DNA of 50,107 nt from Candidatus Bathyanammoxibius amoris (GTDB lineage: Bacteria; Planctomycetota; Brocadiia; Brocadiales; Bathyanammoxibiaceae). Made by a program: the position numbers and the translations under genes. Below the pieces are notes generated by a model that saw nothing but the letters and a program-made list of their open reading frames with translations, made no database searches and was not told the DNA's origin. Location of the stretch: positions 1 to 50,107 of the forward strand of contig JAMXCW010000011.1 of assembly GCA_024451685.1 (NCBI GenBank), written 5' to 3'. Below, one piece after another: positions 5,944 to 50,107 of the stretch (its first letter is position 1; every line of letters begins with the position of its first letter).

Positions 5944-6315
5944 TTGCTGGCCTTAGACCTCTTAATGGAAGGAATCTTGTTGCTGGCGTCCATCTTGTCG
6001 TTAATCTTTCTGTCCCGCGCCAGAAAGGCGTTAACGCTGAAGTCCGTCGGCCGTGCACGCTTTTTCCTTCTCCTGTTTATGGGCCTGATATTGGTAGAGA
6101 ATGGGCTCGGTATATATTTCGGCTTCAGACGTGGACACGACACCATTACGCTTGAGGCCCTGATCCTGGCCCTGGCCAGCACGGCCATATTTTATTCGGG
6201 CAAGGCCCGGCATGAACGGCCCAGAGAGAACCTGGGTGTGGCGGTCGTCTGTATAGCCTGGACGGTCATGTCCAACGCGCTCGAAGTCATCCTCGGATTC
6301 TTCTTGAGGGCGTAA
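5944..6315 (+). CDS. small integral membrane protein of unknown function
   Basis: 123 residues starting with TTG; a strong AGGAGG at 5929-5934 fixes the start. There are about four hydrophobic segments (residues 1-22, 37-54, 65-82 and 98-120) separated by short basic loops such as SRARKALTLKSVGRAR and SGKARHERPR, consistent with an inner membrane protein. I do not recognise a family. It lies between a Fur-type regulator and a permease remnant, with no obvious functional link to either. Confidence 0.65.
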   Translation: MLALDLLMEGILLLASILSLIFLSRARKALTLKSVGRARFFLLLFMGLILVENGLGIYFGFRRGHDTITLEALILALASTAIFYSGKARHERPRENLGVAVVCIAWTVMSNALEVILGFFLRA

Positions 6316-39411: not shown

Positions 39412-39417
39412 AAGCCC

Positions 39418-39434
39418 CACCTTTTGCCCGCCTG
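39418..39434 (+). repeat. 17-bp dispersed repeat, copy 1
   Basis: CACCTTTTGCCCGCCTG. An identical copy lies at 42476-42492 and a close one at 42005-42021. The match with the 42476 copy continues imperfectly for about 17 more bases (RGRTTTGKTGTWAGT). These copies bracket the small-cassette region. Confidence 0.6.
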
Positions 39435-39464
39435 AGATTTGGTGTAAGTTAGTTTTTTTTATGT

Positions 39465-39607: not shown

Positions 39608-40525
39608 GTGCAATCCATAATAAAGAAGCGACTGGCATTGTTTCTTCTCTTAGTTCTTTTTTTATCAACATCCTTGGGTGAAAGCGTGAGTTTTGGCAAG
39701 TGTCAGAGATATGTAAAAAAGACTGGGGGACGCTTAGAGGTGGACCTTGGGGGAGGCTTTGGCCTCTTCAAAGGGCAAGTCGGTGTAAAGATCGGCCCTG
39801 CTGAAGTAAAGAGACTGGCCGATACCTCCCTACTTAGTCTTGATATCGTCCAGCACTACTATTGCATGCAGGCCGAAGAGGCAAGAAAGCGGGCAAAAAA
39901 GACTAGGGATGAAGGTGAAAAAATAACTTTCACCAAGCGTGCAAACGATATGCAGGAAAAAAGGGATGAAGTCTTTAATACACTTTTAGAACTGAACAAA
40001 AAACTTTCAGAATTCTCACTTAAGCCATCAGATTCTGAAAAGATTACATCAGACCTCGTTGACTCATTTAGAGAACATAAGAAGGAAGTTTTTGAATACG
40101 GGGAGGGAATTTCAGACAAGAATGTGACGACAGCCTTAAAAGAGTTACATCTGGCTTATGATGAGGCAAGCCCTTTTCTAATAAAGATGGAAATAACCGA
40201 CCCTCCCGATGGAGAGAAAGTTGGAATGACTTATATCGTGAAAGGAGAGGTTTCAGATCCGACCTATCAGGTGTATGTATTAGTACACCCCCTCATGACG
40301 GACACTTGGTGGGTACAAACCATTCCAGAGGTCAGCCCTGATGGCACCTGGCGAACACGTTGCTATTTTGGGACAGAAACGGCAGGTATAGGTGAACCTT
40401 TTGAGATAATTGCCCTAGCCGCCACTGAAAAGAATCTATTACATAGCGGACAGACAATACCGGTAGGTAGGCTTCCAGAAACAGCTATTAAATCAAGGAT
40501 TATACAGGTAGAACGTACTCAATAG
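39608..40525 (+). CDS. exported protein with helical and Ig-like parts, unknown function
   Basis: 305 residues starting with GTG after a GGGGGAG stretch. A signal peptide (residues 1-24, KKRLALFLLLVLFLSTSLGE) is followed by a helical, lysine- and glutamate-rich region (about 65-195) likely to form coiled coils. The C-terminal part (about 195-295) reads ITDPPDGEKVGMTYIVKGEV and then VYVLVHPLMTDTWWVQ, which resembles a beta-sandwich domain found in various exported or membrane proteins. It is AT-richer than the tldDE block. No function can be assigned. Confidence 0.7.
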   Translation: MQSIIKKRLALFLLLVLFLSTSLGESVSFGKCQRYVKKTGGRLEVDLGGGFGLFKGQVGVKIGPAEVKRLADTSLLSLDIVQHYYCMQAEEARKRAKKTRDEGEKITFTKRANDMQEKRDEVFNTLLELNKKLSEFSLKPSDSEKITSDLVDSFREHKKEVFEYGEGISDKNVTTALKELHLAYDEASPFLIKMEITDPPDGEKVGMTYIVKGEVSDPTYQVYVLVHPLMTDTWWVQTIPEVSPDGTWRTRCYFGTETAGIGEPFEIIALAATEKNLLHSGQTIPVGRLPETAIKSRIIQVERTQ

Positions 40526-40621
40526 CGAAATAAAGTCGTTTTAATGCCTCCCTACTTATGCTACATCTTCATTGGCGTGCCTTAACTATATAGGGCAAGG
40601 CGGGAGAATAGGGAACTCGTC

Positions 40622-40885
40622 ATGATGGGCAATCTGAGTCCAGCGTTCAAAGATCATGACCTGTTGCTGCGTGAGGCACCTAAGTTCCGGTCTGATCCTT
40701 CCCTTGTGCTGATCTTTGAGAAGTTCCCAAACAGGAATGACCCGTTATGCCTTGACCCCTTGGTCATAGTTCGGCGCTTCCTTCTTGACGTTGGTGGGAG
40801 ACTGCAGGCAGGGACGTTAGGAGAGTTGGCAATCTTGATGACGATGGAAGCATCCGCAAACAACGTGAAGGTTTCATACGTTTGA
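40622..40885 (+). CDS. small hypothetical protein, possible integron cassette gene
   Basis: 87 residues, beginning MMGNLSPAFKDHD. There is no signal, no recognised motif and no good ribosome site. It is listed because its stop lies 17 bp before the attC site at 40903, which is where a cassette gene normally ends. It may be spurious. Confidence 0.3.
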   Translation: MMGNLSPAFKDHDLLLREAPKFRSDPSLVLIFEKFPNRNDPLCLDPLVIVRRFLLDVGGRLQAGTLGELAILMTMEASANNVKVSYV

Positions 40886-40902: not shown

Positions 40903-40974
40903 GCCCAACGAGGCGCTGCACCTGACCGCTATTCCGCTGCGCTCCATAGCGGCAGGTGAGCTTTGTCGTTGGGC
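40903..40974. other. integron attC recombination site (59-base element)
   Basis: Inverse core GCCCAAC (40903-40909, RYYYAAC) and core GTTGGGC (40968-40974, GTTRRRY) are part of a perfect 9-bp outer match GCCCAACGA/TCGTTGGGC. The inner arms GCTGCACCTGACCGCTAT (40915-40932) and ATAGCGGCAGGTGAGC (40946-40961) pair fully except for two extra bases, G40918 and A40925. These sit exactly where attC sites have extrahelical bases that orient the integrase. The terminal loop is 13 nt. All sequence rules of an attC site are met; no integrase gene is in the window. Confidence 0.88.
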
Positions 40975-40997: not shown

Positions 40998-41786
40998 ATG
41001 ATCAAGAAGCAAGTGTTCACTATTGCTATAGCCATGATGATGGTATTCCTTATCCTTGGCAGCGATAAGACTATGGCACAAAAGGTTGAGGCATCTGCGA
41101 AAACTTCAGAGAAAGCAACCAAAGCTAATTCAGCAGTTCTTACAGCGGGCGGAACCGCATATGTGCGAGTCAAGCAGTATTTCACATTGTCTGGTGAACC
41201 GACCGTGAGAGACTCTCTTGGAGGGATCGGGTATGTGCTAAAGAATTTGAATCCAGCGGGTGCTGTAGCAATTATCGCAAAGCCGACAGAAAACGACGCC
41301 ACCTTTTCCTTTGGCGATGCAGTAACGCTAATTGAGAAGAAGGACGGTCTTCCCACTATGTGGCTTGTGGCCAAAGCTCAGACAAAGGTTTGGATACCTG
41401 CTTATGTCCTCACAGCTAACAAGGCAGAGATTGATTTTTTGAAGGAGAATAACAGGATTCCAGAAACAATGTCTTACATCTATGATGACGAAGGGCGGAA
41501 AGTGTGGGGTGTTTTCATTGGTGGGTTCGGCAACAGCTTTGTCGTAGATTCTTACGGCATGGTGTTAATGGCTTACGCAGAAGGCACAAGTCCCTTCGCT
41601 ATCAAAGGCAATGCAGTTGTATTTGATGAGTCGGTGATGAAAAAGACATGGGAAAAGCCTCCTGTATTTAATAGCGCAAAAAAGGCATTTAAGCTAACTC
41701 CATCCTGTTTGTATTATTGCGTTTCTGAAGGTGACAAGTCAGCTTTTGAGTGTATAGACTTGGTCGAACTTAAGATCTCTAAGTAA
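40998..41786 (+). CDS. exported protein of unknown function (cassette position)
   Basis: 262 residues from the ATG at 40998, set by AAGGAGG at 40984-40990; a GTG reading from 40956 would run through the attC core. A signal peptide (residues 1-27, TIAIAMMMVFLILGSDKTMA) is followed by a possible SH3-like or beta-rich region (TAYVRVKQYFTLSGEPTVRD, WLVAKAQTKVWIPAYVLT) near residues 50-135. The rest is not recognised. It begins 23 bp after attC, as an inserted cassette gene would, but I find no second attC after it. Confidence 0.7.
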   Translation: MIKKQVFTIAIAMMMVFLILGSDKTMAQKVEASAKTSEKATKANSAVLTAGGTAYVRVKQYFTLSGEPTVRDSLGGIGYVLKNLNPAGAVAIIAKPTENDATFSFGDAVTLIEKKDGLPTMWLVAKAQTKVWIPAYVLTANKAEIDFLKENNRIPETMSYIYDDEGRKVWGVFIGGFGNSFVVDSYGMVLMAYAEGTSPFAIKGNAVVFDESVMKKTWEKPPVFNSAKKAFKLTPSCLYYCVSEGDKSAFECIDLVELKISK

Positions 41787-41895: not shown

Positions 41896-41933
41896 TTGTA
41901 CAAAACTAACGCCAAACAAATAGGAGAAAAGTA

Positions 41934-42038
41934 ATGAATCAAGTAGTTAAAGAAACCAAGTTCATCGTGTTGCCAAAGAACCAATTTTGGACAAATTCCG
42001 CCCACACCTTTTGCCCACCCGGCAGATGTTGTCTATAA
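41934..42038 (+). CDS. short ORF with a good ribosome site, probably a truncated gene
   Basis: 34 codons starting MNQVVKETKFIVLPKN with AGGAG at 41922-41926. The dispersed repeat CACCTTTTGCCCACCCG (42005-42021) falls inside its end, so it looks like the 5' end of a gene cut by rearrangement. Confidence 0.35.
   Translation: MNQVVKETKFIVLPKNQFWTNSAHTFCPPGRCCL
42005..42021 (+). repeat. 17-bp dispersed repeat, diverged copy
   Basis: CACCTTTTGCCCACCCG differs at two positions from the copies at 39418 and 42476. Confidence 0.45.
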
Positions 42039-42071
42039 GGGGGTAGCCGTAAGTCTTTGTCAGTAAAGGTT

Positions 42072-42116
42072 CGGCGCGTGGTTCAGCCTGGTTAGAGCGC
42101 GGCGTTCGGGACGCTG
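42072..42116 (+). pseudogene. 5' half of a tRNA-Pro (CGG) gene
   Basis: CGGCGCG (acceptor 5' strand), TG, D-arm GTTC-AGCCTGGTTA-GAGC, then anticodon arm CGGCG-TTCGGGA-CGCTG with anticodon CGG. It closely follows bacterial tRNA-Pro(CGG) up to the anticodon stem. After 42116 there is no T-arm or matching acceptor strand. The break is in the region where tyrosine integrases often use tRNA genes as attachment sites. Confidence 0.75.
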
Positions 42117-42212
42117 ACTTCAACCCTTTTTAGAATCGTTTCCCGGCGTCTGAAAAAACTAGTAACCATATTCCCCCTCTTCCTCCAAGATGACTTCCTT
42201 TCTGTATCGCGA
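42102..42212 (+). repeat. 111-bp direct repeat, left copy
   Basis: It starts in the tRNA-Pro anticodon stem (GCGTTCGGGACGC) and is repeated at 49997-50107 with a single difference (A42135 against G50030) and no gaps. The right copy runs to the window edge, so the repeat may be longer. The copies are 7,895 bp apart and bound the ChrB/ABC-transporter unit. Confidence 0.95.
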
Positions 42213-42296
42213 AACAATGCCGCTCCTGGTCACAATGCCTACAAGTTTCTTCGGGTCTTCCTCGCTTACCACAGGCAGGCAATTGGCATCCAGCAT
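42159..42296 (-). pseudogene. 3' end of a CBS-domain protein gene
   Basis: The minus strand encodes NCLPVVSEEDPKKLVGIVTR followed by SGIVSRYRKEVILEEEGEYG-Y and a stop at 42159. LPVV...LVGIVTRS is the C-terminal half of a CBS domain, as found at the end of ClC-type channels or other regulators. Upstream of about 42296 the frame merges into unrelated DNA, so only about 45 codons survive. The same 3' end begins again at 50054. Confidence 0.75.
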
Positions 42297-42401
42297 TCCG
42301 AACTCCGCGAATACGAAAAACAAATTGATCGGCTCATCTATAAACTCTACGGCCTTACGCCGGAGGAGATTAAACTTGTTGAAAGCTTCTCTAATTCCTG
42401 A
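42276..42401 (+). pseudogene. 3' end of an Eco57I/TaqI-type DNA methyltransferase gene
   Basis: The plus strand reads ELREYEKQIDRLIYKLYGLT followed by PEEIKLVESFSNS and a stop at 42399-42401. I-D-x-L-(V/I)-Y-x-L-Y-G-L-T-x-E-E-I-x-x-V-E is the recurrent C-terminal end of type IIG and Eco57I-like methyltransferase/restriction proteins. Only about 40 codons remain, and the 5' side runs into the CBS-gene fragment on the other strand at about 42276-42300. It is a scar of a lost restriction-modification gene. Confidence 0.65.
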
Positions 42402-42475
42402 CCATGAAAAAAAATTTAGCGAAAAGCGAAAGACATTTAAAAACACTTACGACACGAGAGGCGTCAGAAAGCACC

Positions 42476-42492
42476 CACCTTTTGCCCGCCTG
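42476..42492 (+). repeat. 17-bp dispersed repeat, copy 2
   Basis: CACCTTTTGCCCGCCTG, identical to 39418-39434 and in the same direction, 3,058 bp apart. The 42402-42578 stretch around it contains no gene I can support. Confidence 0.6.
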
Positions 42493-42578
42493 GGGTTTGT
42501 TGTTAGTATGTTCAATTCTCTGCTAAAAGGCAGTAAAGTGGAGTCCAAATGCGTTTATTGTGGGAGCACGGAAACTCA

Positions 42579-43610
42579 CTATGCGTTGCGAGGAATGATT
42601 ACGGTTCCTGCTCCCAGTGAAAAATGTACCTCACTACCCTCAGTCAGCCACTCCTTTGAAAAGGTAGTAAGCTTGATGTTGTCATACTGCAGGACATATT
42701 GATAAGTAGCCCCTATATATGCCCTTTTACGAATCCTCCCCTTATATTTTCCATCCTTGCCAAGCTGGATAGAGTCGGGGCGAAAAAGGAGCAAGACCTT
42801 GCCTCTTGTTAACCCTTTTGTATTACACCTTAATTGACCAAAGGGTGTGTCTACTAAATCCTTGTTAACGGCCTCAGCCTCGAGAATATTAGAGTCTCCA
42901 ACAAACCTTGCTACAAATTCTGTGGAGGGATGCGAATATATCTCCTCAGGAGAGCCTATCTGCTCTATCCTACCATGGTTCATCACGGCAACCTTACTGG
43001 CTAGAATAAAGGCCTCTTGCTGATCATGGGTAACATAAAGTGTGGTTATCTTTAGTTCTTCCTGTAATCGTGGTATCTCTACCCTTAATTCTTCCCGCAG
43101 GTGTACATCCAGATTAGAAAGTGGCTCATCCATAAGCAGCATTCTGGGCTCAGGGGCAATAGCCCTACCTATCGCCACTAACTGCTGCTGACCACCAGAA
43201 AGACTGGAAGGATAGGTACCTCCATATTTTTCTAATTTTAACTTATTGATTACATCCTCAACTCTTTTCTTCCTGGCAAGCCTACGAATACCGACCGCCT
43301 TGAGACCAAACTCTATATTCGCCTGAACCGTCATATGAGGCCATAGGGCCTGGTCCTGAAACACCATGCCTAGATGTCTAGCCGTCGGCGTCATCTTGTT
43401 TCTGCCCTTGGTACTGGCCAGTCTGCCATCAATCCAAATCTCTCCTTCGTCAGGTGTTTCCAATCCCGCTATCATCCGCAAAGTGGTAGTCTTGCCACAA
43501 CCTGTTGGACCCAAGAGTGCCAATGTTTCACCTTCCTCAATACTAAAGGTTATTTTGCTAACTATGGGCACTCCTTTAAATCTCTTGGAAACTCCCTTTA
43601 AAACCAGCAT
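42579..43610 (-). CDS. ABC transporter ATP-binding protein (FbpC/PotA-type)
   Basis: 343 residues. Walker A is GPTGCGKT (34-41), the signature is SLSGGQQQL, Walker B is MLLMDEPLSNLD, and the switch histidine is in LYVTHDQQEA. A C-terminal TOBE-like domain follows (about 240-343). This is the CUT1/Fe(III)/polyamine subclass of importers. The start overlaps the permease stop by 13 bp, so it is translationally coupled and last in the operon. The substrate is inferred from the binding protein. Confidence 0.93.
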   Translation of the reverse strand: MLVLKGVSKRFKGVPIVSKITFSIEEGETLALLGPTGCGKTTTLRMIAGLETPDEGEIWIDGRLASTKGRNKMTPTARHLGMVFQDQALWPHMTVQANIEFGLKAVGIRRLARKKRVEDVINKLKLEKYGGTYPSSLSGGQQQLVAIGRAIAPEPRMLLMDEPLSNLDVHLREELRVEIPRLQEELKITTLYVTHDQQEAFILASKVAVMNHGRIEQIGSPEEIYSHPSTEFVARFVGDSNILEAEAVNKDLVDTPFGQLRCNTKGLTRGKVLLLFRPDSIQLGKDGKYKGRIRKRAYIGATYQYVLQYDNIKLTTFSKEWLTEGSEVHFSLGAGTVIIPRNA

Positions 43611-45211
43611 AGCCGTGTTCTAACCAGATGAATAATGCCTAAGAACATCCCTACCGGCACAAGCACTATAACTACCAACAATACGGAGACGGCAGCTACG
43701 ACATTTGTTGGGCTGTTTGCCATTACAGTAAACAATGCTATGGGAAGTGTCTCCTGACCAGGTGGATATACCAGAATGGTCGTCCCAATCTCTCCTACAC
43801 AAAAGATAAAAGAGAGAAGCCAGGTAATCATAATGCCACTCCCTACAAGGGGTATAAGTATCTTTCCCTTAAGTCTCCACCAGCCTGCCCCCGCGACCTC
43901 AGCGGCATCTACCAAATTATTAGGGACCTGTCTGTAAGAATCTGCCATGGTACGCGCCGCAATAGGGGCAAACCTGGCTACGTAACCTATAATAATTATA
44001 ATAAATGAGCCATACACGAATTGGGAAAATCCATCCGGCCTATTCCACAGTCTTATCAGGCCTACACCAATTACAGTGCCTGGTATGGCAAATAACATTA
44101 CCATGGAGAATTCCATACCCTTACCGATGTAAATCCTAGCCTTTTCAGAAAAATAGCCTATGGCTAGTCCCAATAGTGTGATGAGGCTTGCCCCAACAAC
44201 ACCAAAGACAAGGGTATTCATTATGCTTTGTCTCGTGAGTAAAAAAGCCTTCTTATAGGCATCCAGAGACCATGAATCCATTACCAATGTTACCAGTGGA
44301 AAGACTACCACCACTGCCAATATTAGACAGCAAGCAATGACACACGGTATCTTCCACCGTCCCAGGAGATATTTATATGTTCTAGTATTAGTTCCTCTTC
44401 CCAGGGCCTCAAATGACCTACCCTTTAAATATATCCTCTCGACCACCATAAGTGAGACAGTCACACAGACTAGTGGTATGGAAAGGGCCACCGCAGCTTT
44501 TTCGTTATAAAAGGCGCTAAATTGGGTAAATATCTGGGTAGTGAGTACCTTTATATCAAGTAGGAATGGCACACCAAACTCAGACAGCGTCAAGATAAAC
44601 ACAATAAGCATCCCTGAAAATATACCCGGAGCGGCAAGTGGAAGCAGGACTTTCGTTATAACTCTGCCTCTTCCTTCAAAGATAAGACCGCTTTCCTCCA
44701 TGTGGGTACCCACCCTTGAGAAGCTTCCTTCTGCTATCAACATTATGACGGGAAAGAAGGACAGTCCCAGTACCATAGCCCCACCAAAGGCACTATACAT
44801 AAAGCTGGAAATCATATCTGCCGTCACGAATGGTATGCCTGAAATGAGGTTGTTTAGCAGGCCAGTCTTTCCCAACAGGTCGGCCCAGGCGAGACCGTAA
44901 ATATACGACGGTATAATAAAAGGCACAAGAAAAAGTATTCTGTAAATGCCCTTAAACGGTAAGTCGGTTTTGCCAAAGAGAAAGCCCGTAAATATCCCTA
45001 AGATAGTCGAAAGTGTTGTAGTTAAAAAAGCAAGAAGTAGTGAGTTAAGAAAGAACAGGCCTGTCTTGTAGTCTGTAAACACTTCTTTATAACTTGAGAA
45101 AGAGGGCCTTCTATCTACCACAAAAGAGTCTCCAAACATCCACAGTATAGGCAGAAATACTAGGAAGAAGATGAGTGCCGCGGTAAGACCAAAGATTATC
45201 TTCTTTGTAAT
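43598..45211 (-). CDS. Fe(III)-type ABC permease, two fused halves, apparent AUU start
   Basis: 537 residues if it begins at ATT (45211). The nearest normal start (ATG 45139) would cut off the first membrane helix (KKIIFGLTAALIFFLVFLPI). AGGAGG lies 6 bp before the ATT, and an in-frame TAG lies just upstream, so no ATG, GTG or TTG can serve. Two copies of the permease EAA loop are visible (FEGRGRVITKVLLPLAAPG and AGAGWWRLKGKILIPLVGSG), as in FbpB/SfuB, with about 12 helices in all. It lies 15 bp after the binding-protein gene. Confidence 0.88.
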   Translation of the reverse strand: MTKKIIFGLTAALIFFLVFLPILWMFGDSFVVDRRPSFSSYKEVFTDYKTGLFFLNSLLLAFLTTTLSTILGIFTGFLFGKTDLPFKGIYRILFLVPFIIPSYIYGLAWADLLGKTGLLNNLISGIPFVTADMISSFMYSAFGGAMVLGLSFFPVIMLIAEGSFSRVGTHMEESGLIFEGRGRVITKVLLPLAAPGIFSGMLIVFILTLSEFGVPFLLDIKVLTTQIFTQFSAFYNEKAAVALSIPLVCVTVSLMVVERIYLKGRSFEALGRGTNTRTYKYLLGRWKIPCVIACCLILAVVVVFPLVTLVMDSWSLDAYKKAFLLTRQSIMNTLVFGVVGASLITLLGLAIGYFSEKARIYIGKGMEFSMVMLFAIPGTVIGVGLIRLWNRPDGFSQFVYGSFIIIIIGYVARFAPIAARTMADSYRQVPNNLVDAAEVAGAGWWRLKGKILIPLVGSGIMITWLLSFIFCVGEIGTTILVYPPGQETLPIALFTVMANSPTNVVAAVSVLLVVIVLVPVGMFLGIIHLVRTRLCWF

Positions 45212-45226
45212 GGATGCCTCCTATAC

Positions 45227-46240
45227 TCAATAGCCGGACCACTTTTTTAGATATGGGTATATCTCTTCCAGCTTATTGGCTACTTCTCTGTAATCTACCT
45301 CGGATTCCTCTATATCCCTAATAGTGACTATGTTTTCTGGTCCCGTAACCCAGGGACGGAGGGGTATCTGCACACATTCTGCATGAGCAAGCTTTTCCTC
45401 TACCTCTGCGCTGAGCAGGAAATCTAATAGTCTTTTTGCATTCTCCGGATTTGGCCCATTCTTTATCATGCAGACCATATTGGGCATTAGAAGCGCCCCC
45501 ATACCTTCCTGGTCAGGATAGATCATACCTACGGGAGCGCCTTCCAGCATAGCCACATTGACATCATCTGTATCGGTTATACCTGCCGCCACCTCACCTC
45601 TTGACACTAGCCTCCTCACCTCACCATTAGAGGAAACTATCCTGACATCATTGGCCTTTAACGCCTCAAAAAACTGCGTGGCCTCTTCGTCTCCCAGGAT
45701 CACAAAGAGTGCGGCTGCATGGATGGTTGTGGTACCAAAAAGGGGATTTGCTATAGCCACCCGACCTGACCACCTAGGCTTTAGAAAATCGAATATAGAT
45801 TTTGGTATTTCTTTGGGTTTTACCAAGTTTTTATTATAAATAATTGCTCGTACCCTGGCAGAAAAACCCGTCCAATAACCTTTCTCATCCTTGTATATGT
45901 CAGGTATATCTCTGGCATTAGGAGATTTGTAAGGTTCTAGCATACCCCTTTTCTCCAGGAGTATTGGCCTGACAGGGTCGCCGCTCCAGAATACATCCGC
46001 CTGCGGGTTACTTCTCTCGGCAATGAGGCGGTTGACTATACCGGTACTTTTTGCCTCCTCAGTATCAAAGATTGCTTTTACCTTAATACCACTTTCCCCC
46101 TCAAAGTCTTTAAGGACAGGCCCCGAAAAGAGTCTGTCCACAGAGGTATAGACCACCACTTCCTGACCCACTACTTCTACCTTTGACAAGCTCGAGAAAA
46201 CTGTCAGAAAAATTAGCGTGACAAAATACTTTCCCATCAC
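45227..46240 (-). CDS. periplasmic substrate-binding protein, Fe(III)/AfuA-type
   Basis: 337 residues from GTG (46240); the ATG at 46237 is an alternative. A signal peptide (1-25) is followed by VVVYTSVDRLFSGPVLKDFE, ADVFWSGDP, GYWTGFSARVRAIIYNK, FLKPRWSGRVAIANPLFGTT, GEVAAGITDTDDV and a C-terminal AKRLLDFLLSAEVEE. This is the family of FutA, AfuA and FbpA-like proteins, mostly ferric iron binders, though some relatives take other ligands. The start overlaps the stop of the upstream gene (TGATG). With the permease and ATPase it forms a complete importer. Confidence 0.9.
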   Translation of the reverse strand: MMGKYFVTLIFLTVFSSLSKVEVVGQEVVVYTSVDRLFSGPVLKDFEGESGIKVKAIFDTEEAKSTGIVNRLIAERSNPQADVFWSGDPVRPILLEKRGMLEPYKSPNARDIPDIYKDEKGYWTGFSARVRAIIYNKNLVKPKEIPKSIFDFLKPRWSGRVAIANPLFGTTTIHAAALFVILGDEEATQFFEALKANDVRIVSSNGEVRRLVSRGEVAAGITDTDDVNVAMLEGAPVGMIYPDQEGMGALLMPNMVCMIKNGPNPENAKRLLDFLLSAEVEEKLAHAECVQIPLRPWVTGPENIVTIRDIEESEVDYREVANKLEEIYPYLKKWSGY

Positions 46241-47688
46241 TCTAAAGCCTTCACAACAAGGTTATCAAAATAGGTAATGGAATCGGCCTTTGTCCAGAGG
46301 CCGATTTTGCCTTTCTCAAAAGTGTTATCTTTCACTTCTAAATAAAACCTATCATCGTAACAACACAGAATTTTATCTCCATTATTTATGATCTTAATGG
46401 TATGCCATTCTCCCGGTGTAACTTTTAGATGCGCTGAGTCTAGTTGCTTGCGATTACCATTTACCACTTTGTAAACCCGGAAGTTATTTTCTAAAGGATT
46501 GGCCCGGGCAACATAGTAGTTATCAGGGTCTTGATAACGCCAGATTGGGCCACCCCCTTGGTCTTCATCTCCTGATACAGCCTTGAACTTCACTTCTAGT
46601 TCAAGGTCACCATAATCTGTATTTTCGATCACAGCTAAGTTGAAGTGATAGCCAGAGTTTTCATTTGAGGTCTGTGCTAATACATGAGGCGGGGTAAGGG
46701 CAGTTTCATCCTCAATTATTTCCCAACAGCCAAGATTTCCCATACCAGTTACCTGATTTGAAAATCCTTTAGGTAACTTCCCAACGCTTTCTTTATCAAA
46801 ACTCCATAATGGGTCTTCAGTTCCACCAACAAATCGTAAAGTAATTGCCTCCGGGGAGACCGAGTGTTCCCAGTAGAGTTCGTCGTCGAGAACAGCAATA
46901 GCGCAGATGTTATCTTTGGTTGAATCAATTACAGCGTCATCATTGTGACCTGTATTGAACTTGCGCGACAACTCCAGTGTCCATTTCTTTCCGTCATGCG
47001 TTCCTTTACCGAGAACATCCGCCAGGCTGCCGGTAGGCTGACGATGTTCAAAGGAATCTACTAACTTACCCTTAAAGGCTATTGGTTTGGATTTCAAGTG
47101 GTAGGAAGACGTTCCCCCATCCAGAATACGTGCGATATAGACCTTTCCATGTCCACCCATTGAGTATTCGTGCCCACCACGGATTGGTTTCTGACTGATA
47201 ATGTGTCGCTTATCGTCCACCCAACCCACGGGGTTACCACGTCCAGCCTTCCAGTGCCATACATCTGCAGTGTACTCGTGAACCAATGTCAACATAGAAA
47301 CGACGAAGTCCCCTGTCATGGGAAATTCTATGGCAAACTGATCATCAGGGTTCGATGGCCGTTCATAGTCTTTCTTCTCGTCGTTCCAGACATACGGATC
47401 CCGCAAGTCATCCCTGGTGTCATCAGGCCATTGAGCCATTACATAAAAGGCATCATTGGTATGAAGGGCACGAAGGACTACCGGTTTTGGGTCACCACCT
47501 CCTATAGCTTCCCTCACCATAACAGTGAGGGGGTTAGCTTTTTCCCAAATCTCATCCATCTTCCCGTCTATAATTGGTGGCGTCTTTGTATAAGAGGACT
47601 CCAAAACGGGAGGCGTAATCTCAGCGCTCCATCCATATTGAAAACACAGGTGTGAAAGAACAACTACTGATATTACAAATTTTATCAT
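46237..47688 (-). CDS. exported ethylbenzene-dehydrogenase-type haem-domain protein with LamG-like tail
   Basis: 483 residues. A signal peptide (1-22) is followed by an N-terminal domain of the EB_dh/CBM9-like type (about 25-275): PPIIDGKMDEIWEKANPLTV, DAFYVMAQWPDDT, DQFAIEFPMTGDF and KKWTLELSRKFNTG. Relatives bind haem b (ethylbenzene dehydrogenase gamma subunit). The second half (about 290-483) is a concanavalin/DUF1080-like sandwich with YHFNLAVIENTDYGDLELEV and GEWHTIKIINNGDKILCCYD. A fusion of these two domains next to an iron importer is unusual. AAAGGAGG precedes the start. A redox or metal-handling role is inference. Confidence 0.78.
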   Translation of the reverse strand: MIKFVISVVVLSHLCFQYGWSAEITPPVLESSYTKTPPIIDGKMDEIWEKANPLTVMVREAIGGGDPKPVVLRALHTNDAFYVMAQWPDDTRDDLRDPYVWNDEKKDYERPSNPDDQFAIEFPMTGDFVVSMLTLVHEYTADVWHWKAGRGNPVGWVDDKRHIISQKPIRGGHEYSMGGHGKVYIARILDGGTSSYHLKSKPIAFKGKLVDSFEHRQPTGSLADVLGKGTHDGKKWTLELSRKFNTGHNDDAVIDSTKDNICAIAVLDDELYWEHSVSPEAITLRFVGGTEDPLWSFDKESVGKLPKGFSNQVTGMGNLGCWEIIEDETALTPPHVLAQTSNENSGYHFNLAVIENTDYGDLELEVKFKAVSGDEDQGGGPIWRYQDPDNYYVARANPLENNFRVYKVVNGNRKQLDSAHLKVTPGEWHTIKIINNGDKILCCYDDRFYLEVKDNTFEKGKIGLWTKADSITYFDNLVVKALE

Positions 47689-47919
47689 ACTATGGCTCTT
47701 CCTCCTTTATTAGACTTGTTAGTATCAAGTATGGGCCTGCTGAAAATCTGTGTAGGTACAGATCGTGCCGGAGGCATCCCTCCTACATTTTTTGGCCCAT
47801 TTTGGTGGTTCGGCAACAGCCTCATTTAACACACACATTTAAACCTGTTAAAACCCCATTTGCCATACCGATTCTAACCCCTTGGAAGTTGGTATTGGAA
47901 CCCCTGGGTGCTTCAAGGT

Positions 47920-48150
47920 TTAACCTCCCATCTTCTCCTCCGGGCTGGCCTTCTCCCTGCAGTCTTGTTCCCCTATCATGTTATCCACCACCGCCTGCCA
48001 ATCGGTGGCAATGTATTCTGTTTTCTCTAAAACCCTTTCCAACGGATGGCATAGAGAACATTTGTCCTTGAAGAGCAAAACACGTTCTTTCGCTTTCTCC
48101 TCTAGGGCAACAACGGTAAACAACAAGCCTGTTAAAAAGTGTACCCTCAT
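47920..48150 (-). CDS. small exported monohaem cytochrome c
   Basis: 76 residues. A short hydrophobic N-terminus (MRVHFLTGLLFTVVALE) is followed by the haem site C31-SL-C34-H35 in KDKCSLCHPLERVLEKTEYI and a helix WQAVVDNMIGE. The start overlaps the ChrB stop as ATGA, so it is coupled to that gene. It probably donates or accepts electrons for the EB_dh-type protein encoded next (inference). The 231 bp between this gene and 47688 hold no gene I can support. Confidence 0.8.
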   Translation of the reverse strand: MRVHFLTGLLFTVVALEEKAKERVLLFKDKCSLCHPLERVLEKTEYIATDWQAVVDNMIGEQDCREKASPEEKMGG

Positions 48151-49106
48151 GCCCTTTTCAGACCTTTATACAGGTATTCAAAAAATTGGATACCTTCCTC
48201 TAGCAGGATGTTATCCTCGTCATATATATCCATTATCCCCTTTAACAGGAGAATAACCGCCTTCGCCTCCTCCTTCCCATACTTACCATCCTTGAGGTCG
48301 GCATCGTGGACAATCCTAGAAATTTCCCATGCGGCAGGGTCTTTGATGCCAAACCTCTTTAGCATGGTCTCTATAGTGCAATCATCCCCATGATGACTGA
48401 ATTCGACCCCCACCATGTCAAAAGGTATAAACCCGCCAGGCAGTGGGTCTCCTGCCTTTTGAAAAGAGAAATTGGCCTTGGGGTCAATAAACCTCCTTAT
48501 AAACCAGGCAGTAGCTAACCTGTCCACATGAGGTCTTTTGCGCGTTATCCACCTTTTCTTCCGAAAATCCTCCTTCCTCAGTGGGGTCAACACACCGGGA
48601 TGCTTTCTTTGTCTTTTAGCCTCTACAGCCTTTGTGCAACGGAGGAAGAGCTTCTTAGTCTCTTTAGCGAGCGGAGCACTGAAAAAGTCTATCTCCGCCA
48701 AAGTCTTTAGTTTTTTTTCTATAGGAGTTAGCTCCTTATTCAAAACATCTCCCTCGGCAGCTGTTTTTTCCTTCCCTCGAGTAATCTTTTTGAGGAGGGA
48801 TTCACATGCCGTTATTATTCCCCGATAGTCCGCATCTCTTGCGGTATTAAAGAGCCCGATAATGTCTTGATCCTCTAGGTTCTCTATGCCGTTTGTCTTC
48901 ACCAGGGTGGCCTCTCCCCCCACGGACTGAATCTCCTGGCCTAGCCATTGGAAGTTCTCGTAAGTCCTCTCAGTTAAAGGGAGGATATAAACGGAATTCT
49001 TCAGGGAAACTGCCCCAAGTTGCCTGAATTTCCGCCACAGCCTCATCCTTTCCTTAGAGGCCTTCACGGGTAGGCTGTACATCAACAAGATCCACTGTAG
49101 TGTCAT
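48147..49106 (-). CDS. chrB: ChrB-like chromate-resistance family protein
   Basis: 319 residues from the ATG at 49106; a longer in-frame reading to 49178 adds an unlikely tail. The N-terminal domain (LLMYSLPVKASKERMRLWRK, LGAVSLKNSVYILPLTERT) matches the ChrB N-terminal family. The C-terminal domain (WITRKRPHVDRLATAWFIRR, FDMVGVEFSHHGDDCTIETM) matches the chromate-resistance C-terminal family with its conserved H, D, E and H residues. Known ChrB proteins regulate or support chromate efflux, but no chrA is present. It is the first gene of the six-gene operon that runs to 42579. Confidence 0.87.
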   Translation of the reverse strand: MTLQWILLMYSLPVKASKERMRLWRKFRQLGAVSLKNSVYILPLTERTYENFQWLGQEIQSVGGEATLVKTNGIENLEDQDIIGLFNTARDADYRGIITACESLLKKITRGKEKTAAEGDVLNKELTPIEKKLKTLAEIDFFSAPLAKETKKLFLRCTKAVEAKRQRKHPGVLTPLRKEDFRKKRWITRKRPHVDRLATAWFIRRFIDPKANFSFQKAGDPLPGGFIPFDMVGVEFSHHGDDCTIETMLKRFGIKDPAAWEISRIVHDADLKDGKYGKEEAKAVILLLKGIMDIYDEDNILLEEGIQFFEYLYKGLKRA

Positions 49107-49141
49107 GTTATACGTATACCATATGTAATAGATAATACAAT

Positions 49142-49169
49142 ATTTTAGTTGAATTCCACACAATGTCAA
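49142..49169 (-). promoter_or_regulatory. sigma-70 promoter of the chrB/ABC operon
   Basis: On the minus strand TTGACA (49169-49164), 16 bp, TAAAAT (49147-49142), about 36 bp before the chrB ATG. It is the only good promoter seen upstream of the six-gene run. Confidence 0.55.
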
Positions 49170-49185
49170 GTATAACACTTACATT

Positions 49186-49201
49186 GTTACTAAGTTACTA
49201 A
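49186..49201 (+). promoter_or_regulatory. tandem GTTACTAA repeat in the divergent promoter region
   Basis: Two perfect head-to-tail copies of GTTACTAA lie between the chrB promoter and the 49228 gene. They could be an operator controlling both directions (inference). Confidence 0.35.
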
Positions 49202-49227
49202 ACAGGTTGTATAAGGGGGAACCAAAA

Positions 49228-49800
49228 ATGAGATGGGCCATATTCTTAATATTGACGCTTTTGCCATCCCTTTCCTTTGCACAGGGGGAATGGGGTGGGC
49301 CTCTGCAGTCCTTATCTCAACAGGAAAGGGTGGAAATGGTAACTCTCATATTTAAGATGCACGTATATGACCTTGACCAAGCAAAGCACAAGAAGTTCTG
49401 GGAAATAGCAGATTCCCATAAATGGTCCGAAAAAGAGTTGCCGGAGTTGTTTGATAGGCTTTTCGGCAGAGGTACTGTGCGCCAGCGGTATATGCTACGG
49501 GCGGTCCTTAGTGCGTATGAAAAGAAGAAGGATACAAAGAGTACTGAATTCCAGGAGTATGAGGCCAAATTAGTCAAGTTGGAAGTAATCGCCCCGGAGG
49601 AAATAAAGGAGTCCGATGAATTTATTTATAAAGTAGCTCACGGAGAACCCGTGGTAATTGAGGGCCTTTGGGGAGACCCTTGGGCAGAGCCCATATTCAA
49701 CGATCATTGGGCAGAAAATTACCGCGCCAATCTTGACATCATAGATAAGTACCACAAACAATCCCTGCAACTTTTTGATAGGAACTGGAAGGGTGAGTAG
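49228..49800 (+). CDS. exported protein of unknown function
   Basis: 190 residues from the ATG at 49228, with AAGGGGGAA before it. A signal peptide (MRWAIFLILTLLPSLSFAQG) is followed by a helical domain (about 30-105, LSQQERVEMVTLIFKMHVYD) and a charged C-terminal part (KVAHGEPVVIEGLWGDPWAE). I do not recognise the family and there is no CxxCH. It is divergent from the chrB operon and shares its control region, so it may belong to the same system. Confidence 0.7.
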   Translation: MRWAIFLILTLLPSLSFAQGEWGGPLQSLSQQERVEMVTLIFKMHVYDLDQAKHKKFWEIADSHKWSEKELPELFDRLFGRGTVRQRYMLRAVLSAYEKKKDTKSTEFQEYEAKLVKLEVIAPEEIKESDEFIYKVAHGEPVVIEGLWGDPWAEPIFNDHWAENYRANLDIIDKYHKQSLQLFDRNWKGE

Positions 49801-49996
49801 AAAGTAATTCTTAATTGTTCCTACGGAAACATACTGAATTCATCGTCTACAAATTAAGCCGCTAAATTTCTCGCTAAATATTGGGCTAATTGGTTTCATA
49901 ATTTTGTGCTTCCCTATTTCTTCTTCCAATATTACCTAAAATCTTGTATTTCTAGTTATTTACCTTATTCTTGAGAGTAAGCTCACAACAGTTAAT

Positions 49997-50107
49997 GCGT
50001 TCGGGACGCTGACTTCAACCCTTTTTAGAGTCGTTTCCCGGCGTCTGAAAAAACTAGTAACCATATTCCCCCTCTTCCTCCAAGATGACTTCCTTTCTGT
50101 ATCGCGA
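49997..50107 (+). repeat. 111-bp direct repeat, right copy (runs to the window edge)
   Basis: Matches 42102-42212 at 110 of 111 positions. The DNA before it (49801-49996) is AT-rich, holds no gene I can support, and does not resemble the tRNA half found before the left copy. Confidence 0.95.
50054..50107 (-). CDS. 3' end of a CBS-domain protein gene, cut by the window edge
   Basis: The last 17 codons and stop of the same C-terminus seen at 42159 (ending VILEEEGEYGY). This copy may be the intact gene, because its upstream part lies beyond the window. Not decidable from here. Confidence 0.55.
   Translation of the reverse strand, partial: SRYRKEVILEEEGEYGY

Follow-up and report, generated by a model that had tools for sequence, protein, structure and literature searches.

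In an integron, the integrase IntI binds the hairpin that the bottom strand of an attC site forms on folding, in which some bases stay extrahelical. Strands are exchanged at the G/TT of the R′ box, and a pair of such points encloses the DNA that is mobilized as a cassette. Lone sites have a name of their own: a single attC site lacking an integron-integrase is a SALIN, of which 115 examples are described in Shewanella (PMC9229058), and single-attC CALINs are treated in IntegronFinder (PMC9024848). Cassette insertion at attG sites, outside integrons, is attributed to Loot et al. (2024) in two papers that cite that work (PMC12444791, PMC12901181). For planctomycetes, attC sites have been modelled before (Ghaly et al., 2021; PMC8352920), and an intI of the anammox bacterium Kuenenia has been reported (PMC3607928). 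Integrons in planctomycetes, including an anammox bacterium, lone attC sites and insertion outside integrons are all already known. Our literature search found no report of a lone attC in an integrase-free anammox family or of its tie to the attC type described below, and nothing relevant on integrons together with Brocadia.

The window analyzed here is the whole stretch of 50,107 nucleotides at positions 1 to 50,107 of contig JAMXCW010000011.1 (GCA_024451685.1, Candidatus Bathyanammoxibius amoris). Sequence, folding, covariance models and covariation place a 72-bp attC site on the forward strand at 40903–40974, oriented with the cassette on its left. The R″ box GCCCAAC (RYYYAAC; 40903–40909, from sequence and alignment) is complementary to the R′ box GTTGGGC (GTTRRRY; 40968–40974, from sequence), and the total length lies within the 55–150 bp allowed for attC. 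From the position established for attC sites, crossover presumably falls between G40968 and T40969, and the bottom strand of 40903–40974 would be the expected recombination substrate. The pattern GCCCAACN{40,66}GTTGGGC matches the window once, at this site, with a chance expectation of 0.02. Folded as single-stranded DNA, the site reaches -24.1 kcal/mol on the bottom strand and -23.8 kcal/mol on the top (z about -5; 0 of 200 shuffles equally stable on either strand), and it is the only one of the three 72-mers with perfect 7-bp ends in the window to fold below -15 kcal/mol.

The fold is an imperfect hairpin with a perfect 9-bp outer stem, inner arms GCT/AGC, CACCTG/CAGGTG and CCGCTAT/ATAGCGG, two extrahelical bases, and an unpaired central spacer with unequal sides (GGC/TTTG). 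The first extrahelical base is a G on the top strand at 40918, supported by folding, covariation and comparison with the cmlA5 cassette attC; the second, at 40925, is an A on the top strand and a T on the bottom strand, supported by folding and covariation. A previous reading of this DNA, made from the sequence only, had given the cores, the outer stem, the inner arms and the two unpaired bases correctly and left the spacer unmentioned. An assembly artefact at 40903–40974 is unlikely, because the window contains no N and the same contig carries genes of known order in relatives. Rfam returned no match at these positions. Scanning the host's genome with RYYYAACN{30,55}GTTRRRY, whose gap limit excludes a 72-bp site, gave only unrelated matches, fewer than the reversed control. 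A 20-bp imperfect inverted pair with core-like letters (39437–39456 and 41902–41921) was weighed as a candidate for further attC remnants and discarded because none of the models gave it a score.

Covariance models differed in their reach. A narrow model (R1), built from 13 resistance-cassette attC sites of clinical plasmid records with the loops trimmed, did not find the window site at E 10; it did detect several siblings of the site. A general attC model (R3) was built from 47 sites, 16 from resistance-cassette plasmids and 31 from relatives; these were R1 matches in plasmid integrons and relatives, and the window site was excluded. A further model (R2) was built from 24 related sites. Since both R2 and R3 include siblings of the site, their scores test family membership, and R3 is not fully independent: R3 gives the window site 57.5 bits (E = 6.9e-12) against 10.5 bits for the next-best match in the window, and R2 gives it 93.7 bits. 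Over the 2.07-Mb genome it is the sole R3 match and the single full-length R2 match, the only further R2 match being a 32-bp fragment at 27 bits. The sequence-only reading had offered two observations that would speak against it, a low covariance score and recurrence as a non-integron repeat. Neither was made: the R3 score is high, the sequence is single-copy in its own genome, and its copies in relatives are integron sites. No second attC was found with R2 or R3 near the site or elsewhere in the window and genome, and a CALIN takes at least two; nor did R3 find a decayed attC near the site in the window.

That the family consists of attC sites is indicated by its intI-headed arrays, the loss of conservation after GTT, covariation of the arms, likeness to the cmlA5 site, and adjacency to group II introns. 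A search of 39 genomes returned many matches, confined to the attC stretch itself. Sites of the R2 type occur in 51 of the 62 genomes of the order, with a maximum of 17 per genome; the window site has the second-best R2 score among all of them and lies near the family consensus, GCCTAACAAGGCGCTGCACCTGACCGCTATTCCGCTGCGCTCCATAGCGGCAGGTGAGCTTTGTCGTTAGGC. These sites end cassettes in integrons of other anammox families and are also found on some plasmids. At one such locus (L040, on G027:C79), the minus strand encodes an IntI of 473 aa (373 bits). Behind it, the plus strand carries at least eight attC sites, two of them window-type, which separate a TIR-domain gene, a toxin-antitoxin-like gene pair and orphan ORFs. 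This is a canonical integron, and L091 has the same layout.

Conservation across 26 related sites is high through GTT and gone 3–4 bases further on, as would follow if the adjoining DNA, whatever it is, supplied the R′ tail; because R′ tails vary, a strict-core structural scan missed most of the relatives' sites. The inner arms covary (31 double-sided changes vs. 14 in shuffles), with 94.6% of inner-arm cells paired and, as expected, 68% in the outer R″/R′ helix. The first extrahelical base falls at the same place in the window site and the cmlA5 cassette attC. Group II intron domains adjoin homologous sites on plasmid pLNU-11 and in genome G030, and attC sites are an established target of group IIC introns (see also PMC7923331). 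Plasmid pLNU-11 (L025, Citrobacter freundii) carries several group II intron pieces, two adjoining attC sites; at the end of the intron sequence, the attC at 5997 lacks an R″ box. The R3 score, the homologues beside intI in canonical integrons and the covariation support the attC reading originally proposed, and we take 40903–40974 to be a genuine integron attC.

Hydrazine synthase alpha (PF18582), present in 40 of the 62 genomes of the order, is encoded in the host's genome at C12:59251; the host is an anammox planctomycete, in keeping with its earlier attribution to the planctomycetes, and presumably belongs to the order Brocadiales. Integron integrases were sought with profile TIGR02249, for which the curated cut-off is 265 bits. 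At E 1e-60, 30 of the 62 genomes of the order have a match (26 above the curated cut-off), compared with none of 14 control genomes. The best match in the 95%-complete genome of the host reaches 77.3 bits, the level of XerC/D proteins that all 14 controls also reach. The sequence-only reading had seen no integrase on the contig, and none is present there or in the rest of the genome by this profile. Without an intI gene there is no complete integron in this genome. Of the two possibilities raised before, a lone site or an integrase-free cluster, the former holds: with one full attC match and zero intI in the whole genome, the site is a SALIN. The integrases of the order fall into two size classes, one of about 320 aa and one of 410–503 aa (L040, L101, L102, L103, L104, L105, L107); those of the longer class have an N-terminal extension of 100–190 residues that looks like an additional core-binding (SAM-like) domain, which Pfam does not name.

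Like SALINs and single-attC CALINs, the locus has one attC, no integrase nearby, small orphan ORFs on its flanks, and a chromosomal location. It differs from the Shewanella SALINs in that Shewanella has integron integrases, whereas none was found in any of the nine genomes of the host's family (f1). The attC at L040:9997–10068 is about 92% identical over 67 bp, with the same arms and loop, but stands in the eight-attC array headed by intI while the window site stands alone. The attC sites of the cmlA5 and estX cassettes are similar in length (70–71 bp), in their R and L boxes and in the placement of the first extrahelical base; their stem and loop sequences differ, and they come from clinical mobile integrons. 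Insertion at attG sites, as the citing papers describe it, would likewise leave solitary cassettes dispersed over chromosomes; it may apply to the window site, whose left junction could not be identified.

By integron logic, an attC closes the cassette on its left, and it is the DNA to the right that contributes the TTGGGC completing R′. An 87-aa orphan ORF on the left (40622–40885, forward strand) stops 17 bp before the attC and is most likely the cassette gene that it closes. On the right, a 262-aa orphan ORF (40998–41786, forward strand) would be the next cassette or flanking DNA. Its start 23 bp after the site, as first read, stands: there is an ATG at 40998 with a GGAGG ribosome-binding site, and a same-frame GTG lies within the attC at 40956. 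An N-terminal hydrophobic stretch suggests that the product is probably exported. For neither ORF did searches of plasmids and of 294 genomes from the phylum give a homologue, and one 40-residue match appeared in a Clostridia genome; cassette genes are commonly without homologues. Further left, a 305-aa ORF with no function assigned (39608–40525, forward strand) has a distant relative in genome G007 of the same family (38% over 146 residues). No TTRRRY core that could form a left cassette end lies between the 305-aa and 87-aa ORFs (40525 to 40622), and R3 finds no attC in the window 3′ of the 262-aa ORF, so that any limits drawn for the cassette are tentative.

About 10.6 kb of low-GC DNA (39412 to about 49996; GC 0.45 vs. 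0.52–0.57) surround the attC and separate TldD from a chloride-channel/CBS gene. This stretch is recognized by comparison with genomes G004 and G001, in which TldD is followed within about 0.1–0.2 kb by the convergent chloride-channel/CBS gene. The chloride-channel gene has its 3′ end duplicated as a 213-bp direct repeat that borders 42316–49996 on both sides, with one copy at 42102–42315 of the window and the other at 49998–50310 of contig C11, interrupted by a 100-N scaffold gap (50108–50207). The repeat begins in tRNA-Pro anticodon stem-loop sequence. At 42069–42117 the window carries a tRNA-Pro(CGG) gene reduced to its 5′ half, with 85% likeness to the intact counterpart in G001 (L124:5212–5288). 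ARAGORN called no tRNA at 42069–42117; the fragment could be the trace of an integration. Three direct copies of CCCACCTTTTGCCCGCCTG... lie at 39416–39454, 42003–42041 and 42474–42512, and the first copy with the following 145 bp is 94% identical to a contig end of genome G002, in another context. The segment 42579–46240 holds genes for the ATPase, permease and solute-binding protein of a ferric-iron type ABC transporter.

We consider it reasonably probable that this true attC, now a SALIN, belongs to a cassette that came from another bacterium's integron and was fixed at a non-integron site by an integrase acting in trans. This account builds on the sequence and structure of the site, its homologues in intI-headed arrays, a genome with neither intI nor another attC, and the absence of the stretch in relatives, and it is favored further by the orphan ORFs on both flanks and the low GC of the surrounding DNA. 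A cassette closed by the attC, probably that of the 87-aa ORF, would have left the integron of its donor; we infer an integrase-driven insertion in the host genome, after which the site would be mobile only given a foreign IntI. Against this stand the failure of R1 to find the site and the missing TTRRRY between the 305-aa and 87-aa ORFs; the complete R′ (TTGGGC) on the right also fits a remnant of an array or attI and is unneeded at a random genomic site. Moreover, the site sits within a larger island, so that a separate insertion is not required. The attC may instead have arrived embedded in that island (39412 to about 49996) by some other form of transfer, no integrase ever having acted at the locus, which we regard as rather unlikely, though far from negligible. 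The whole stretch is missing where G004 and G001 have the same two genes, its GC is low throughout, it contains the tRNA-Pro fragment and direct repeats, and its left end recurs in a different context in G002. However, the 213-bp duplication splits the part with the attC from the right part with the iron-type transporter, so these may be separate events, and the match to G002 is uninformative, being limited to the left 145 bp up to the contig end.

A resident integron of which this site is the last remnant, its intI and other attC sites lost, seems improbable. The sister families in which intI is widespread would favor such a loss, as would the proposal that CALIN-type elements are degraded integrons (PMC9024848), but no intI was found in the nine genomes of the host's family, no decayed attC lies near the site, the locus is empty in G004 and G001, and a sequence so near the family consensus, second-best in the order, suggests recent arrival. 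Least credible of all, to the point of being nearly dismissible, is the idea that the site is no attC and that a terminator or some other repeat happens to fold alike. The hairpin is strong and similar sequences are dispersed in relatives, yet there is a single copy in the host's own genome, the full hairpin has no T-tract after it, and the sole terminator-like match, a partial stem of 5 bp, occurs at the frequency expected by chance. The R and L boxes and extrahelical bases match those of resistance-cassette attC sites, and the homologues that separate cassettes beside intI refute this idea in the main.

Sites of this type also accompany traffic beyond the order. Plasmid pGSUB1 of Geoalkalibacter subterraneus and genome G027 share a DNA methyltransferase gene with a window-type attC at 94.7% identity over 1,089 bp (L024:4976–6063 and L053:9651–10739, minus strand); the identity ends on the right inside the attC and on the left just before the gene, with no core there. 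By one route or another, DNA with a window-type attC has thus crossed phyla. Integrase-free anammox families might share a pool of cassettes, which other anammox bacteria supply through their integrases and other phyla through their plasmids, and gain chromosomal cassettes from it, a view that we put forward tentatively. The window site brings an integrase-free anammox lineage into the range of integron cassette exchange and connects the attC type of that lineage with the intI-headed arrays of other anammox families. The single site matters less than this wider picture of intI in about half of the order, the attC type in most of it, and a gene and attC that a Geoalkalibacter plasmid has in common with an anammox bacterium. 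Within the host's nine-genome family, genome G008 has one attC and a weaker second match on an 8.4-kb contig. This attC (L132, G008:C43, 7589–7646), likewise in an integrase-free genome, closes a 103-aa ORF, and the contig also carries acetolactate synthase genes.
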